Below, in pieces: positions 13,015 to 18,486 of a stretch of DNA of 64,000 nucleotides. Every line of letters starts with the position of its first letter. The first letter of the stretch is position 1. Source of the DNA: Paraburkholderia ginsengiterrae (GTDB lineage Bacteria; Pseudomonadota; Gammaproteobacteria; Burkholderiales; Burkholderiaceae); contig NZ_LXKA01000371.1 in assembly GCF_001645125.1 (NCBI RefSeq), forward strand, positions 124,001-188,000, given 5' to 3'. The notes beneath the pieces are model-generated. The model was not told where the DNA came from. It searched no databases and saw only the letters and a program-made list of their open reading frames with translations. Position numbers and translations under genes: made by a program.

Positions 13015-13665
13015 TTACGACGCCCGGCGCGCCGCGCGAGCGACACGCGTGAGCGTCATGCCTCGCCCCGCATAGAAACGCGCCATCGTGTCGAACGGCA
13101 GATACACATCGGCCTGGTGCGGCGCGATGCCCGAAGGATTGTGAAACCACACGCCGTCGCGATCGCGCCCATGGAGCAGGATCAGATGGCCGCCCTGGTG
13201 CCGATTGTCCCGTTCGGGATAGCGGATCTCCGGGCTCACCGAGACAATGGCCAGCGTTTCGGGGGCGAGACGCGCGGCGATCGCTTCCAGCGGTATCTGC
13301 GGCAGCACGTCCACCTGAAGGCCGAAAGCACGCTCCGCCCAGGCGGCGAACGGGTGGTAGATCAAACCGTCGACGCCGCCATCGTCGCGCATGCGGTATA
13401 CGCCGTGGCGCAAGGCTTCGTCGAGCAGCACGGCGCGCGGCGCGTGCCCGATGCGCCAGTAGTCGAGCGCGGATTCGAGGCACGTCAGGCCGCACAGGCG
13501 TTTGGCCCAGAAACGGTACCGCTCGGGATCGGCAAAGCCGCTGCGTTGCCAGTCAGGGTCGTCGCACGGATCGCCGTGCTGCTCGACGATCTGGCGCACC
13601 CAGTCGGGGCTGCCCCATTGCGTGTAGTACGGCACGCCGGCGTGGCGCAAGGTCGGTTCGTTCAT
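13015..13665 (-). CDS. C39-like papain-fold protein
   Basis: 216 residues from ATG 13665 (a GTG three codons upstream is possible). A papain-like triad can be proposed: Cys62 in GLTCLESALDYW, His160 in QGGHLILLHG and Asn176 in FHNPSG, which fits the C39-like peptidase fold. There is no signal peptide, so it is cytoplasmic. It is not fused to an ABC exporter as bacteriocin-processing C39 domains are. It is transcribed divergently from hipBA across a 142-base gap that holds the hip operators, so it may share their control. Substrate unknown. Confidence 0.6.
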   Translation of the reverse strand: MNEPTLRHAGVPYYTQWGSPDWVRQIVEQHGDPCDDPDWQRSGFADPERYRFWAKRLCGLTCLESALDYWRIGHAPRAVLLDEALRHGVYRMRDDGGVDGLIYHPFAAWAERAFGLQVDVLPQIPLEAIAARLAPETLAIVSVSPEIRYPERDNRHQGGHLILLHGRDRDGVWFHNPSGIAPHQADVYLPFDTMARFYAGRGMTLTRVARAARRAS

Positions 13666-13705
13666 CAATCGCACAAGGAGTCAGTGAAGGCAGATATTGG
13701 CATTT

Positions 13706-13800
13706 TATTCGTCCAGCAGATATTGGTGAAATATTCGCCACACGAATATTTGACAAATATTCGTGTGGCGAATAAAGTGCATTTATTCGTGTCGCGGATA
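13706..13800. promoter_or_regulatory. Four-operator array of hipBA, 26-bp period
   Basis: Four copies of a 17-bp palindrome TATTCG-N5-CGAATA lie at 13706-13722 (right half CAGATA), 13732-13748 (perfect), 13758-13774 (perfect) and 13784-13800 (right half CGGATA). Their centres (13714, 13740, 13766, 13792) are exactly 26 bp apart. A right half-site CAGATA at 13691-13696 continues the same period. The two middle copies together form a long inverted repeat. The array ends 7 nt before the hipB ATG. HipB-type antitoxins bind spaced palindromes of this kind, so these are probable HipB/HipBA operators. Confidence 0.85.
13750..13778 (+). promoter_or_regulatory. Probable sigma-70 promoter of hipBA
   Basis: A perfect -35 TTGACA (13750-13755) is followed after 17 bp by TAAAGT (13773-13778, 4 of 6 to consensus). 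The third operator-like palindrome fills the spacer, so bound HipB would exclude polymerase. Transcription would begin near 13785. No clear Shine-Dalgarno precedes the hipB ATG. The complementary strand has weaker -35/-10 combinations that could serve the divergent C39-like gene. Confidence 0.7.
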
Positions 13801-13807
13801 ATTTGCC

Positions 13808-14062
13808 ATGCTCAACCTTATCGCCACCTCGGATCAGGTCGCCCAACTGCTTGCCGCCAGCCGGCGGCAAGCAGGTCTCACGCAAAGCGAGGCCGCGGCG
13901 CGGATCGGCGTCAGCCAGAGCCGCATTTCGGCACTCGAAACCGACGCCGCCGCCCTCACCCTCGAGCAATTGCTGGCACTGTGCGGAGTCTACGGCCTGC
14001 AACTGCAATTGCGCGACCGGAGCCAGCCCTTGCCCGGTCCGGCGCCTGTGGCCGAGTGGTGA
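13808..14062 (+). CDS. hipB: HipB-like antitoxin, XRE-family HTH
   Basis: The 84-residue product is a Cro/C1-type helix-turn-helix protein. The HTH spans about residues 11-60 (LLAASRRQAGLTQSEAAARIGVSQSRISALE), with a short C-terminal tail as in HipB. It should neutralise the adjacent HipA kinase and repress the operon through the four upstream palindromes. The hipA ATG follows its stop by 2 nt, so the pair is translationally coupled. Confidence 0.9.
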   Translation: MLNLIATSDQVAQLLAASRRQAGLTQSEAAARIGVSQSRISALETDAAALTLEQLLALCGVYGLQLQLRDRSQPLPGPAPVAEW

Positions 14063-14064
14063 GC

Positions 14065-15405
14065 ATGAGCCGGCAAACACGCTCACGCGCATTGTCGGTG
14101 TGGGCCAATGGCGAGCGCGTCGGCATCTGGCGCCTGCCCACGCGCGGCCCCATGGAGTTCACCTACGACCTCCCCTGGATCGCGTCGCCCGCGGGACGGC
14201 CGCTGTCGCTGTCGCTGCCGTTCACACCAGGCAACTTCGCGCACAAAGGACCGCGGGTCCTCAACTATTTCGACAATCTGCTGCCCGACAGCGAGGCAAT
14301 CAGAAAGCGCATCGCTCAACGCTACCAGACCGACACGCTCGACGCATTCGATCTGCTGCAAGCCATCGGCCGCGACTGCGTGGGCGCGGTCCAGCTGCTC
14401 GCCGAAGACGACAGACCGCAAGGCGTCGAACGGATCGAGGGCACGCCGCTCACGGACAGCGAGATCGAGTCCATGCTGGCGCGCACGGTCAGCGGCCCGG
14501 CGCTCGGCGCACCGGACGAGGCCGACGACTTCCGCATCTCGCTCGCAGGCGCGCAGGAGAAAACCGCGCTGCTCTGGCACGAGGGCAAGTGGCAGCGGCC
14601 GCACGGCGCTACGCCCACCACGCACATCTTCAAGCTGCCGCTTGGCCTCGTCGGCAACAGGCTCGCCGACCTCAGCACCTCGGTCGAAAACGAGTGGCTG
14701 TGCCTGCGAATTCTGCAGGCCTACGGCCTGCCGGTCGCGAACGCGGAAATCATGACGTTCGGCAAGCAGCGCGTGTTGAGCGTGGAGCGCTTCGACCGGC
14801 ATCTGCATTCGAGCGGCCAATGGCTGCTGCGCCTGCCACAGGAAGACTTTTGCCAGGTGTACGGCGTGCCGTCGCATCGCAAGTATGAAAACGAAGGCGG
14901 TCCGGGCGTGCTCGACCTCGCGCGGATTCTCCAGCAGTCGGTCGCGGCACAGCACGACATCGAAACGCTGCTGGCGAGCCAGATCCTGTTCTGGATGCTG
15001 GCCGCGCCGGACGGCCACGCCAAGAACTTCAGCATTCGCCTGCTGGCCGGCGGCCACTATCGCCTGACGCCGCTTTACGACGTGATGTCGATATGGCCGG
15101 TGGAAGGCAGCGGCCCGAACCAGTGGTCGTGGTACAAGGCGCGGCTCGCCATGGGGATGTGGTCGCGCAGCAAACACGACGCGTTCCGCGACGTGCAGCG
15201 GCGCCACTTCAACACGATGGCGCTAAAGTGCTCATATGGCGCTGACGCCGAGCCGCTGATCCAGCGTCTGATCGAGCAGACACCCGACGTGATCGAGCGG
15301 GTCTCGGCGGAGTTGCCGGCGCGCTTTCCAGGCAAAGTCGCGGAGCGGATCTTCAAAGGCCTGACAAGCTCAGCGGCGAAACTCGACAAGATGACGGCCA
15401 CGTAA
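14065..15405 (+). CDS. hipA: HipA-like serine/threonine kinase toxin
   Basis: 446 residues from ATG 14065, close to E. coli HipA (440). It carries the HipA N-terminal domain and the kinase core. The autophosphorylation loop ISLAGAQEKTALL contains Ser159 (E. coli Ser150), SVERFDR is at 239-245, and the catalytic loop PDGHAKNFSI has Asp316 and Asn321. The metal-binding PLYDVMS contains Asp339. All key residues are intact, so the toxin should be active. Known HipA phosphorylates glutamyl-tRNA synthetase and causes growth arrest and persistence; the target here is inferred. Confidence 0.93.
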   Translation: MSRQTRSRALSVWANGERVGIWRLPTRGPMEFTYDLPWIASPAGRPLSLSLPFTPGNFAHKGPRVLNYFDNLLPDSEAIRKRIAQRYQTDTLDAFDLLQAIGRDCVGAVQLLAEDDRPQGVERIEGTPLTDSEIESMLARTVSGPALGAPDEADDFRISLAGAQEKTALLWHEGKWQRPHGATPTTHIFKLPLGLVGNRLADLSTSVENEWLCLRILQAYGLPVANAEIMTFGKQRVLSVERFDRHLHSSGQWLLRLPQEDFCQVYGVPSHRKYENEGGPGVLDLARILQQSVAAQHDIETLLASQILFWMLAAPDGHAKNFSIRLLAGGHYRLTPLYDVMSIWPVEGSGPNQWSWYKARLAMGMWSRSKHDAFRDVQRRHFNTMALKCSYGADAEPLIQRLIEQTPDVIERVSAELPARFPGKVAERIFKGLTSSAAKLDKMTAT

Positions 15406-15711: not shown

Positions 15712-16566
15712 ATGGCCAACGAAACAAACTCACCTGACTCCATCGCGGTTGCCGAGCGTGTGCGCGAGTTAATGAGCCGGCACGGAATCGGCAAGCGCCA
15801 GCAAACCACTGAACTGTGCCGCATCCTCGATTTGAGCTTTTCGCAGGGACACCGCAAGTTGCGCGGCAACAGCCCCTGGACCCTGTCGCAGCTCAAGAAA
15901 GTCGCCGAAGTATTTGGCGAACCGGCCGCCCAGCTGTTCGGCGCGCAATCGCTCGATCCGGGCATGGTCGGCGCGATCGCCCAGGAGGCGATATTCAGCA
16001 TCGGCGCGATCGAACTGGCGTGCACCGCCTGGGTCGGCGCCGCGCTCGAGGCGGGCAGCCGACCGGAATTCGTCGCGTACTGCAAGCTCGGCCAATGGCG
16101 CGTGGCGCGTCACGACGGCACGCTTTATCAAAGCGCGTACGAGGTCCACAAGATCGAGATCTATCCGCGCCGCGCCGAAACCGACAAGCCGACCATTGCC
16201 GTGGTCGACGACGACCAGGCAAGCGCCGACAACCTGCGCGACTATCTGGAGCGCAGCGGCTTCACGGCGGTTGCGATCTACGGACTCACGGCCTTCACCG
16301 AACAGCTGCAAACCCAGGTGTTCGACGGCATCGTGATCGACTGGCTGTTCGGCTCGCAGACCTCGGCGGCCGCGATTCGCGCAGTGCGCGCGTCGGAAAA
16401 TCCGGACGCGCCGATCTTCGTGCTGACCGGTGAACTGTTGACCGGCAAGGCCAGCGAATCGGAGATCAGCCAGGTGATCCGCAACTACGACGTCGCGTGC
16501 TACGAAAAGCCCGCGCGCATGGCGATCCTGGTCGCCGATCTGTCCAAGCGGCTCAACCGGCCCTGA
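15712..16566 (+). CDS. BetR-type HTH/receiver response regulator
   Basis: 284 residues. The N-terminal part (about 10-80; VRELMSRHGIGKRQQTTELCRILDLSFSQGHRKLRG) matches the BetR helix-turn-helix type. Residues 100-155 form a small linker domain. Residues 160-280 are a receiver with acidic Asp166-Asp168, phosphoacceptor Asp210, Thr239 and Lys266 all present. The order is unusual for a response regulator because the DNA-binding part comes first. It ends 69 nt from the convergent hybrid kinase gene, its probable partner. Confidence 0.82.
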   Translation: MANETNSPDSIAVAERVRELMSRHGIGKRQQTTELCRILDLSFSQGHRKLRGNSPWTLSQLKKVAEVFGEPAAQLFGAQSLDPGMVGAIAQEAIFSIGAIELACTAWVGAALEAGSRPEFVAYCKLGQWRVARHDGTLYQSAYEVHKIEIYPRRAETDKPTIAVVDDDQASADNLRDYLERSGFTAVAIYGLTAFTEQLQTQVFDGIVIDWLFGSQTSAAAIRAVRASENPDAPIFVLTGELLTGKASESEISQVIRNYDVACYEKPARMAILVADLSKRLNRP

Positions 16567-16635: not shown

Positions 16636-18486
16636 TCACCGCATCGGCCGTAAAGCCAACGCGCGCTGCAATGCACGGCGCAGATCCTCGTAATGTACCG
16701 GCTTTAATAACGCTTCGAAATACGGCCCCGAGCCAGCCTCCCTGGCTTCATCCTCCCCGCTCTCCCCCGCTTCCGGCGCGTACGCGCTAACCACGATCAC
16801 CGGCACGCCTGAAGACGGTCCACCGCGCTTGGCGAAATCCGCGAGAAACGCGTAGCCGTCGCGCCCCGGCATATGCAGATCGAGCAGCACCACGTCGCAG
16901 CGGCGCGTGTCGAGCCAGGCGAGCGCATCGTCGGCATTGCCGACCGCGTGCGAATCGAAACTCATGTGCGCGACCATTTCGCTGAGCGACTCGCGGATCA
17001 AGCGGTTGTCGTCGACGATCAGCACGCACGGCCGCGCGCCGCCAGGCTCCGCGCGTGCCGCCACGTGCGGCGCGGCTGCCGCCACGGGCGTGACCGGAAT
17101 CGTCACCGTGAAGGTCGTGCCCTCGCCGACCTTGCTCGCCACATCGACCGTGCCGCCGAACAGCTTGACCAGTCCCTGCACGATTGTCAGCCCCATCCCC
17201 GCGCCCTCGAAGCGGCGCGTGCGCGACGCGTCCAGTTGCGTGAACTCCTGGAAGATGAGCGGAATCTGCGCGCGCGGCACGCCCGGCCCCGTATCGCTGA
17301 CGACGAAGATCAGCACCGCCGGCCGCTGCCGCAATTGCACGCGCACCGTACCGGTCTCCGTGTAGCGGATGGCGTTGGTGACAAGGTTATTGACGATCTG
17401 GCGGATGCGATGCGGATCGGAATCCACCAGGCCGCTCGGGCCGCTCACCTCGCTTTCGAGAAGCAAACCGCGCGCGGCGGCGGATAACGCATGTTCGTCG
17501 ACGATCGACGCCAGCAGTTCGCGCGGATCGAATTTCTCGTGGCGCAGCTCGAGCTTGCCGGCGCCAAGACGCGCGTAGTCGGTCAGATCCTTCATCTGCG
17601 CTTCGAGATGCCGCGCGGCGGTTTCAAGCCGCTGGATCACCTTGCGGTCCGCCTCGGAGTGATAGTTGAAACCCAGCAACTCGACCGACGACACGATCGC
17701 ATGCAACGGCGTGCGCAACTCGTGGCTGATCATGCCGAGAAACGCGTCCTTGGCATGACTGGCCTCGCGCGCGGCGCGGCTCGCCTGGTGCTCGGCCTCG
17801 AGCGCCGCGTGCTGCTGATGCATCAGGCGCGTGCGGCGCCGGCCGTTCAACACCAGCAGCGACGTCGCCGCCGCCGACAGCAACAGCAGCAACAGTCCGC
17901 CCGCGAACAGCATGCGGCGCTTGTCGATGAAATCGCGAGTCATCGCTTCGCGGTCGGCGACATCGGCAAAGCGGCGGCTCAGCGCCAGATCGTTGACCTC
18001 GTTCCAGTGCTGGCGCAGTTGCGCGACGATCTCGTTAGCACCGCGGCGGTCCTTCGGCAACGCGTCGACTTCAGGCTGGATGCCGCCGAGCAGTTGATCG
18101 AGGGTGTGGATTTCGTCCAGCTGCCTTTGCAGCAGCGAGAGTTGCGTGGTCAGGCGGCGCGTCGAGCCCTCCATCACGTGCAGCTTCGACTGCAGCAACT
18201 GGTAGCGCAGCATCAGCCGCGGGTAATCGTCATCGACGCCGGACTGATACAGCAGTAACTGATTCTCGAAACGCGCGTAGGCGATTTGCAGTTGGGCGGC
18301 GTCCCAGTAGAAGCCGTCATATGAACCGGTCAACTGCTCGGTGGCGCGCGGGTTGAGCAGGTTCGCGTACAGCAGATAGCCGATCGCGCCCGCCGGCGCG
18401 GCAAGCGCGGTTAGCCAGATCAGCACGTAGAGAACACGGCGCCACGGACGGCGCACTATTTGACGATGAGTGCCTTGATCTGCCAT
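16636..18486 (-). CDS. Hybrid sensor histidine kinase
   Basis: Inner-membrane sensor of 616 residues. Transmembrane helices lie at about 18-42 and 192-214 and flank a periplasmic all-helical sensor domain of about 150 residues. The HisKA domain has phosphoacceptor His255 (GMISHELRTPLHAI), followed by an HATPase with VNNLVTNAIRYT (N box), DTGPGVP and GAGMGLTIV. A C-terminal receiver (from about 485) has LIVDDN, Asp in LLDLHMPG and Lys in ALLKPV. No HPt domain is present. The start overlaps the 3' end of the upstream periplasmic gene by 31 nt, so the two form one operon. Confidence 0.93.
   Translation of the reverse strand: MADQGTHRQIVRRPWRRVLYVLIWLTALAAPAGAIGYLLYANLLNPRATEQLTGSYDGFYWDAAQLQIAYARFENQLLLYQSGVDDDYPRLMLRYQLLQSKLHVMEGSTRRLTTQLSLLQRQLDEIHTLDQLLGGIQPEVDALPKDRRGANEIVAQLRQHWNEVNDLALSRRFADVADREAMTRDFIDKRRMLFAGGLLLLLLSAAATSLLVLNGRRRTRLMHQQHAALEAEHQASRAAREASHAKDAFLGMISHELRTPLHAIVSSVELLGFNYHSEADRKVIQRLETAARHLEAQMKDLTDYARLGAGKLELRHEKFDPRELLASIVDEHALSAAARGLLLESEVSGPSGLVDSDPHRIRQIVNNLVTNAIRYTETGTVRVQLRQRPAVLIFVVSDTGPGVPRAQIPLIFQEFTQLDASRTRRFEGAGMGLTIVQGLVKLFGGTVDVASKVGEGTTFTVTIPVTPVAAAAPHVAARAEPGGARPCVLIVDDNRLIRESLSEMVAHMSFDSHAVGNADDALAWLDTRRCDVVLLDLHMPGRDGYAFLADFAKRGGPSSGVPVIVVSAYAPEAGESGEDEAREAGSGPYFEALLKPVHYEDLRRALQRALALRPMR

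Follow-up and report, generated by a model that had tools for sequence, protein, structure and literature searches.

The window analysed here, a stretch of 64,000 nucleotides from the genome of Paraburkholderia ginsengiterrae, contains a pair of adjacent genes that the original prediction had called hipBA, and this identity is borne out by domain matches, structural matches, catalytic residues and the end of the antitoxin. The first gene, hipB (13808..14062, plus strand), encodes an 84-aa Xre/Cro-type helix-turn-helix (HTH) antitoxin (HTH_3, E 1.7e-12), and its stop codon lies 2 bp before the ATG of hipA (14065..15405, plus strand), which encodes a 446-aa HipA kinase toxin with the domains Couple_hipA (E 2.6e-23) and HipA_C (E 4e-50), both above the curated Pfam cut-offs. 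This HipA matches the E. coli HipA in the PDB (2wiu_A, E 5.2e-95), and K157, K181, D309, N314 and D332 (E. coli numbering), which we take to be the kinase residues, are all identical in it, as is S150, presumably the autophosphorylated serine. The likeness of HipB to its E. coli counterpart is weak in sequence (2wiu_B, E 4.3e-4), and its match to the NCBI HipB model PRK09726 (E 7.1e-8, 32.3 bits) falls under the cut-off of 79 bits. It ends in PVAEW with the tryptophan last, and the C-terminal Trp of HipB (W88) is termed universally conserved in the available text of one study (PMC3376134). Judged by its sequence, the operon is an intact hipBA of the E. coli type, lying directly downstream of an array of palindromes. 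The closest named loci are from Paraburkholderia, with HipA 87-92% identical, among the best 80 of 587 relatives used from the named collection.

Upstream, on the minus strand, lies a divergent gene (13015-13674) with a Peptidase_C39_2-like domain (E 6.2e-6), whose start is at 13674 (GTG) or 13665 (ATG). Just downstream of hipA, 15712-16566 encodes a BetR domain (E 2.2e-53) and, after it, a receiver domain of the response-regulator type, and the adjoining 16636-18486, on the minus strand, reads by eye like a hybrid histidine kinase.

The four-site array and its promoter

Four palindromes of 17 bp at an exact period of 26 bp had been predicted before hipB, and all four are confirmed. Compared with TATTCG-N5-CGAATA, site 1 (13706..13722, centre 13714; TATTCGTCCAGCAGATA) has two mismatches, site 2 (13732..13748, centre 13740; TATTCGCCACACGAATA) and site 3 (13758..13774, centre 13766; TATTCGTGTGGCGAATA) have none, and site 4 (13784..13800, centre 13792; TATTCGTGTCGCGGATA) has one; no strand is assigned to these palindromes, and their start-to-start distances are 26, 26 and 26 bp. 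We scored arrays by the palindromy of each site plus the similarity of neighbouring sites, with the period free between 20 and 45 bp. The best period in the window is 26, with a score of 54, and 400 dinucleotide shuffles of the 750-bp stretch gave a mean of 32.6, a standard deviation of 1.6 and a maximum of 38; the array is real and not a product of chance. Exact matches to TATTCG-N5-CGAATA occur only twice in the 8.53-Mb genome, and these are sites 2 and 3. The half-site said to continue the period on the left is also there: within a fifth-operator remnant (13680..13696, no strand assigned), the right half CAGATA (13691-13696) stands in register and agrees with CGAATA at 4 of 6 bases (counted by eye), and the left half (13680-13685) is lost, with 0 of 6 matches, so that the remnant as a whole keeps 4 of 12 half-site letters. 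A full fifth site is present in close relatives (for example L006, L007, L008, L009, L011 and L012), and the window has therefore probably lost half of one.

Several of these palindromes, which carry TA at their outer ends (TA-out), overlap the hipBA promoter. The -35 element TTGACA (13750..13755, plus strand) matches the consensus at 6 of 6 positions and fills part of the linker between sites 2 and 3, immediately downstream of site 2; the -10 element TAAAGT (13773..13778, plus strand) matches at 4 of 6 and overlaps the right edge of site 3, which thus occupies the -35/-10 spacer and the first two bases of the -10. Site 4, 7 bp before the hipB ATG, covers the expected transcription start and leader region. 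With a spacer of 17 bp the promoter reaches 10 of 12 consensus matches. A promoter threaded through the sites is accordingly present, as had been claimed, with a perfect -35, and the word 'consensus' was slightly generous for a -10 of 4/6. The -35 begins 42 bp before the centre of the last site (-42).

Since sites 2 and 3 are exact mirror images, 13732-13774 forms a perfect 43-bp inverted repeat around the -35, with perfect arms of 21 nt (13732-13752 and 13754-13774); by eye the same repeat is perfect in L008 and L011 too. Mirror symmetry as a conserved rule was ruled out, since direct repetition of neighbouring sites is about as frequent in the 26-bp class as mirroring. In 230 pairs of neighbours from that class (83, 82, 46, 18 and 1, counted from the hipB end), the mirror/direct similarity of the central 5 bp was 0.45/0.51, 0.55/0.46 (the pair at the -35), 0.42/0.51, 0.36/0.40 and 0.40/0.20.

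Spacing and letters across hipBA loci

HipA matches were found in 45 of 60 relatives at E up to 1e-3. At a limit of 1e-40 the order contributed 62 of 399 genomes, and at 1e-50 the class contributed 33 of 369 (E. coli HipA as query) and the phylum 48 of 398. The survey leaves out at least 16 matches above the cut-offs (order search: G102:C5, G305:C6, G105, G161, G132, G175, G040, G081, G113 and G199:C35; class search: G736, G695 and G584; phylum search: G981, G897 and G972), as well as weaker matches among the 60 relatives beyond those used as controls. The hipA start could be placed in 175 of the 179 loci of a first set (all except L167, L178, L179 and L183), and 168 remained once 7 duplicates or too short loci had been dropped; a wide set added 68 loci after removal of 5 duplicates, which gives 236 distinct hipA loci. 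Each was tested for three successive palindromes at a period of 20-45 bp within the 750 bp before hipA, against 30 shuffles of its own sequence, a threshold at which chance alone should let through a few per cent of loci.

All 30 shuffles were exceeded at 191 of the 236 loci, with periods of 27 (88 loci), 26 (86), 28 (13) and others (4: 23, 30, 33 and 40), so that 187 of the 191 significant arrays have a period of 26, 27 or 28 bp. The other 45 loci fail the three-site test, although 29 of them still peak at 26-28, and the best period falls in this range at 216/236 loci versus 1/20 controls. These controls are 20 loci of more distant HipA relatives, taken from matches to the window HipA with E worse than 1e-48 (1e-47 to 1e-15), and no significant array was found in their upstream regions (0/20). 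They too have an upstream gene ending near hipA, which by eye is HTH antitoxin-like in 16/20, and none of the 20 ends in Trp, whereas Trp is last or next to last in HipB at 212/236 loci. Because the controls were placed by match start, their hipA start may be off by up to ~90 bases; the Trp check was therefore repeated with a wider range, again with 0/20. At 80% HipA identity, the 175 full-length HipA proteins fall into 101 clusters, of which 32 have 26 bp, 32 have 27 and 7 have 28; of the remainder, 2 are mixed, 26 have no significant array, and the periods 30 and 33 occur in one cluster each. Among near neighbours, the spacing could be shared by descent alone.

Two of the stray periods, at L044 (33) and L144 (30), belong to arrays that start ~200 bp before hipA, inside the hipB coding sequence; L181 (period 40) has a 27/40/27 layout, and L211 (period 23) is without explanation. 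When 24 stray or failed loci were re-examined, no clear array was seen in several of them (e.g., L192, L202, L213, L215, L103 and L111). An earlier test, which used the palindrome score alone on 260-bp upstream stretches of 29 loci, placed 26 best or joint best in 23/29, with a score at 26 above all 40 shuffles in 13/29; this low figure is partly due to 39 = 1.5 x 26 scoring as well, and the test was replaced by the score that adds between-site similarity.

Within the 26-bp group, 50 arrays have three sites, 23 have four and 13 have five. The position of the promoter relative to the last site is clear in this class: of 84 arrays, 72 have the -35 between -41 and -43 and 54 have it exactly at -42, and the 84 aligned arrays show the consensus TAaa.T at the place of the -10. 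It follows that the penultimate site falls in the promoter spacer in that class. In the 69 arrays of the 27-bp class and the 11 of the 28-bp class, a simple promoter search found no single clear register.

In 182 of the 187 arrays, the outer TA allowed one dyad to be identified as the site. The array begins with a left half and ends with a right half in 97/182, shows the reverse in 15/182 and is mixed in 70/182, and the excess of 97 over 15 makes the TA-out dyads the likelier sites. Their letters vary widely, with 58 different six-base half-sites across the 182 arrays and 23 across the 86 arrays of the 26-bp group, in which TATTCG (22), TATTCC (10), TACCTG (8) and TATCGG (7) stand beside others. 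The expectation that TATTCG-N5-CGAATA would recur at 26-bp spacing before orthologous hipBA thus held for the spacing but not for the letters, which are found as the consensus in 22 of the 86 arrays, mostly of close relatives. Site and linker together make 17+9 bp in 84 arrays, 18+9 in 69 and 18+10 in 11. Another 16 entries read as 17+10, most of them (TATATT, TATAAA and alike) indistinguishable from 18+9 and clear in L090, L095 and L110; 18+8 was read in two arrays (L141 and L253), and five were unassigned to a site and linker class. A clean 2 x 2 scheme, with sites of 17 or 18 bp and linkers of 9 or 10, was dropped because most 17+10 entries cannot be separated from 18+9. By eye, the half-site may go together with the recognition helix of HipB.

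The spacing classes follow the HipA phylogeny. A FastTree tree was built from the 175 of 236 loci with at least 380 aa of HipA sequence, of which 135 rows are labelled 26, 27 or 28; the tree comes with warnings that long branches, that of E. coli included, meet in it. Over the 135 labelled rows, 6 changes suffice for the three spacing states. When non-significant rows and stray periods are counted as states of their own, 38 changes are needed, versus a mean of 79 after shuffling, and a count as low was reached in 0 of 200 shuffles. One side of a single branch (support 96) holds 110 rows, which comprise all 84 rows with 26 bp, 22 that lack a significant array, 3 with 27 and 1 with 30. All 8 rows with 28 bp belong to a group of 17 to which E. 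coli also belongs; of its other rows, 4 have 27 and 5 have no significant array. With a root outside, the tree would most simply be read as one step from 27 to 26, followed by a reversion to 27 in some Variovorax loci (L090, L095 and L110). That the letters of the sites change while their spacing barely does suggests that the bound proteins themselves act as the ruler.

Comparison with known hipBA operators

In E. coli, hipBA is an autoregulated pair, and HipB binds four TATCCN8GGATA sites cooperatively, as described in the available text of two papers (PMC3920265, PMC3376134), the first of which also reports that HipB bends the DNA by 70 degrees and that HipA is a co-repressor. The E. coli K-12 sites O1-O4 resemble the window in being four TA-out palindromes before a hipBA operon whose HipB has a C-terminal Trp. 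By eye, one of them also lies between the -35 and a weak -10, and the -35, TTGACT, stands at -42.5 from the centre of the last site, compared with -42 in the window. They differ in being 18 bp long, with other letters, and in their layout: their centres are at -125.5, -97.5, -58.5 and -30.5 from the hipB start, that is, 28/39/28 in two pairs, whereas the 17-bp sites of the window have a uniform 26/26/26 and lack TATCC-N8-GGATA. Thus, of the difference from the E. coli operators put forward in the original prediction, the letters and the uniform pitch stand, but the contrast was overstated. Since half-site letters vary across the family, those of E. coli are not a family-wide feature. E. coli K-12 misses the three-site test because its array is split, and similar split layouts are found at L250 (28/39/28), L254 (28/37/28) and, as noted above, L181. 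In all of them the two sites of a pair keep their spacing, and the middle gap exceeds it by 9-13 bp, roughly one turn of the helix. The window locus is a uniform-pitch variant of the E. coli hipBA operator.

Elsewhere, according to the available text of two reports, Caulobacter crescentus hipBA1 and hipBA2 have three operator sites each (PMC8545095) and series of identical inverted repeats whose intervals are described as compatible with the higher-order complex of E. coli (PMC7029023). This likeness, in another lineage, is at the level of the published description. The Legionella HipBST operon, a related toxin operon, is preceded by evenly spaced HipB operators O1-O3, but with 53-bp gaps, another motif and a split toxin, and its authors contrast it with E. 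coli cooperativity in the part of the paper available (PMC10653801). In the literature search no survey of hipBA operator spacing was found, which is weak evidence, as the central E. coli and Shewanella papers were outside its reach; the accessible part of a HipA phylogeny paper mentions palindromic operators and holds no spacing survey (PMC8262856). The novelty of the spacing rule is not established.

What may fix the pitch

The four palindromes are almost certainly HipB operators through which hipBA would be autoregulated. We consider it likely, further, that HipB units are bound to the array cooperatively and that the pitch is fixed by the geometry of their contacts. In the arrangement that we propose, a HipB dimer, alone or as HipB2HipA2, would sit on each TA-out palindrome. 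As site 3, the penultimate one, lies in the -35/-10 spacer, its occupation would shut the promoter; on either side of it, sites 2 and 4 would still fall within the footprint of RNA polymerase, and the array would be continued upstream by site 1 and the fifth-site remnant. Neighbouring complexes would touch at a fixed distance, probably via HipA as in E. coli, and could therefore bind cooperatively and give a switch-like repression. If the spacing is set by the geometry of the proteins, the site letters would in turn be free to co-evolve with HipB at a constant pitch, which would be 26 bp in the clade of the window, 27 in most others and 28 in a branch to which the E. coli relatives belong. With 10.5 bp to the turn, 26 bp make 2.48 turns, in agreement with the earlier estimate of about 2.5, so that HipB2HipA2 units stacked at this pitch would roughly alternate between faces of the helix (27 bp make 2.57 turns and 28 bp make 2.67). 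A HipB-HipA super-complex on the window array would fit the E. coli precedent, the cooperative wrapping that had also been proposed may occur, and from that precedent and the conserved pitch we infer HipB binding, cooperativity and a HipA-HipA bridge acting as ruler at this locus.

It could be argued that adjacent HipB dimers cooperate without HipA, through bending and twist of the DNA, and that the spacing reflects DNA mechanics. D88 of HipA, which we take to be an interface residue, is found in 82 of 84 HipA of the 26-bp class and in 21 of 43 of the 27-bp class. G22, which is said to matter for HipA dimerisation in the available text of one paper (PMC7029023), is found in 78 of 84 and 21 of 43, respectively. 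These dimerisation-linked residues thus vary in the 27-bp class while the arrays persist, as cooperativity by HipB alone would allow, and the bridge there may differ or may not be HipA. The review cited above also ties the 70-degree bend of E. coli HipB to cooperative binding, as far as its available text goes (PMC3920265). Even so, we think this alternative unlikely, as single-bp steps in spacing that follow the HipA tree would look more like protein contact geometry.

Another explanation is that the array is the operator of the divergent Peptidase_C39-like gene, or of both genes. Its two possible starts lie 16 bp (GTG) and 25 bp (ATG) from the CAGATA half-site, and a promoter-like TTCACC-17-TAAAAT on the minus strand (9/12) lies within the array. 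However, a homologue occurs in the examined flank of only 10 of 85 arrays with 26 bp (flanks before hipA of 1500 bases or nearly so in 73/85 and shorter in 12/85), and at some of these 10 loci it is hundreds of bases away from the array, which stays with hipBA. Control of the divergent gene as the main role of the array was rejected on this count, and any form of this explanation appears quite improbable. That the array would belong to hipBA is supported by the same comparison, together with its place before most of the related hipA loci.

A regulator of the host other than HipB is a still poorer candidate for reading the sites and can be considered very improbable, since the only two exact matches in the genome are both in the window array and since the half-site letters change between loci while the sites stay beside hipB, as for an antitoxin that reads its own operators. 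A structural DNA or RNA element (the 43-bp inverted repeat folded into a hairpin or cruciform) or a spreading repeat is hardly credible despite the perfect symmetry of sites 2 and 3, given the roughly equal share of direct and mirrored neighbours in the 26-bp class and the absence of any second exact copy of the sites in the genome.

Returning to the contact-fixed array, a broader version of it can be put forward as a tentative possibility. Tandem HipB arrays across the Pseudomonadota might share an inherited pitch set by a protein ruler, in which the site width (17 or 18 bp, the HipB dimer) and the linker (9 or 10 bp, the HipB2HipA2 contact) change in single-base steps to give 26, 27 or 28 bp and the letters turn over freely. 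A continuous stack of HipA, HipB and DNA might then cover the promoter, the 28/39/28 layout of E. coli might be a secondary split by about one helical turn, and each genome might hold the recognition sequence of its own HipB in 3-5 copies.

The part of these results that merits attention is the inherited pitch of 26, 27 or 28 bp, which outlasts the letters and was not seen in the 20 more distant HipA loci tested. hipBA is a classic persister locus, and control of toxin release by HipA-HipA assembly on the promoter is, to our knowledge, known mainly from E. coli. A spacing rule that outlasts rapid change of letters would be independent natural evidence that neighbouring complexes must touch, and the contact idea becomes testable with spacing variants alone. 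Moreover, the arrays label each HipB with its own DNA motif, which makes them a data set for the recognition code of the Xre family, and these motifs could be used to predict cross-talk between hipBA paralogues.

As a separate observation, 30 of 166 HipB proteins (those with a Trp end and a match to a loose HTH pattern) have a tail of at least 60 residues between the HTH and the Trp (L050, L054, L059, L061, L064, L145-L147, L149-L164, L166, L169, L173, L174, L182 and L184; L152 and L153 appear to be copies). In 27 of the 30, at least 17% of the tail is Lys and Arg, and the tails are often rich in Ala and Pro and look histone-H1-like by eye; 24 of the 30 stand behind assigned 27-bp arrays. A putative role in coating or condensing DNA is a thought that these tails invite. 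At L184:20-733, which encodes a predicted HipB of 285 aa, a tandem repeat of 51 bp gives rise to the tail before the C-terminal Trp, with ~14 units of 17 aa.
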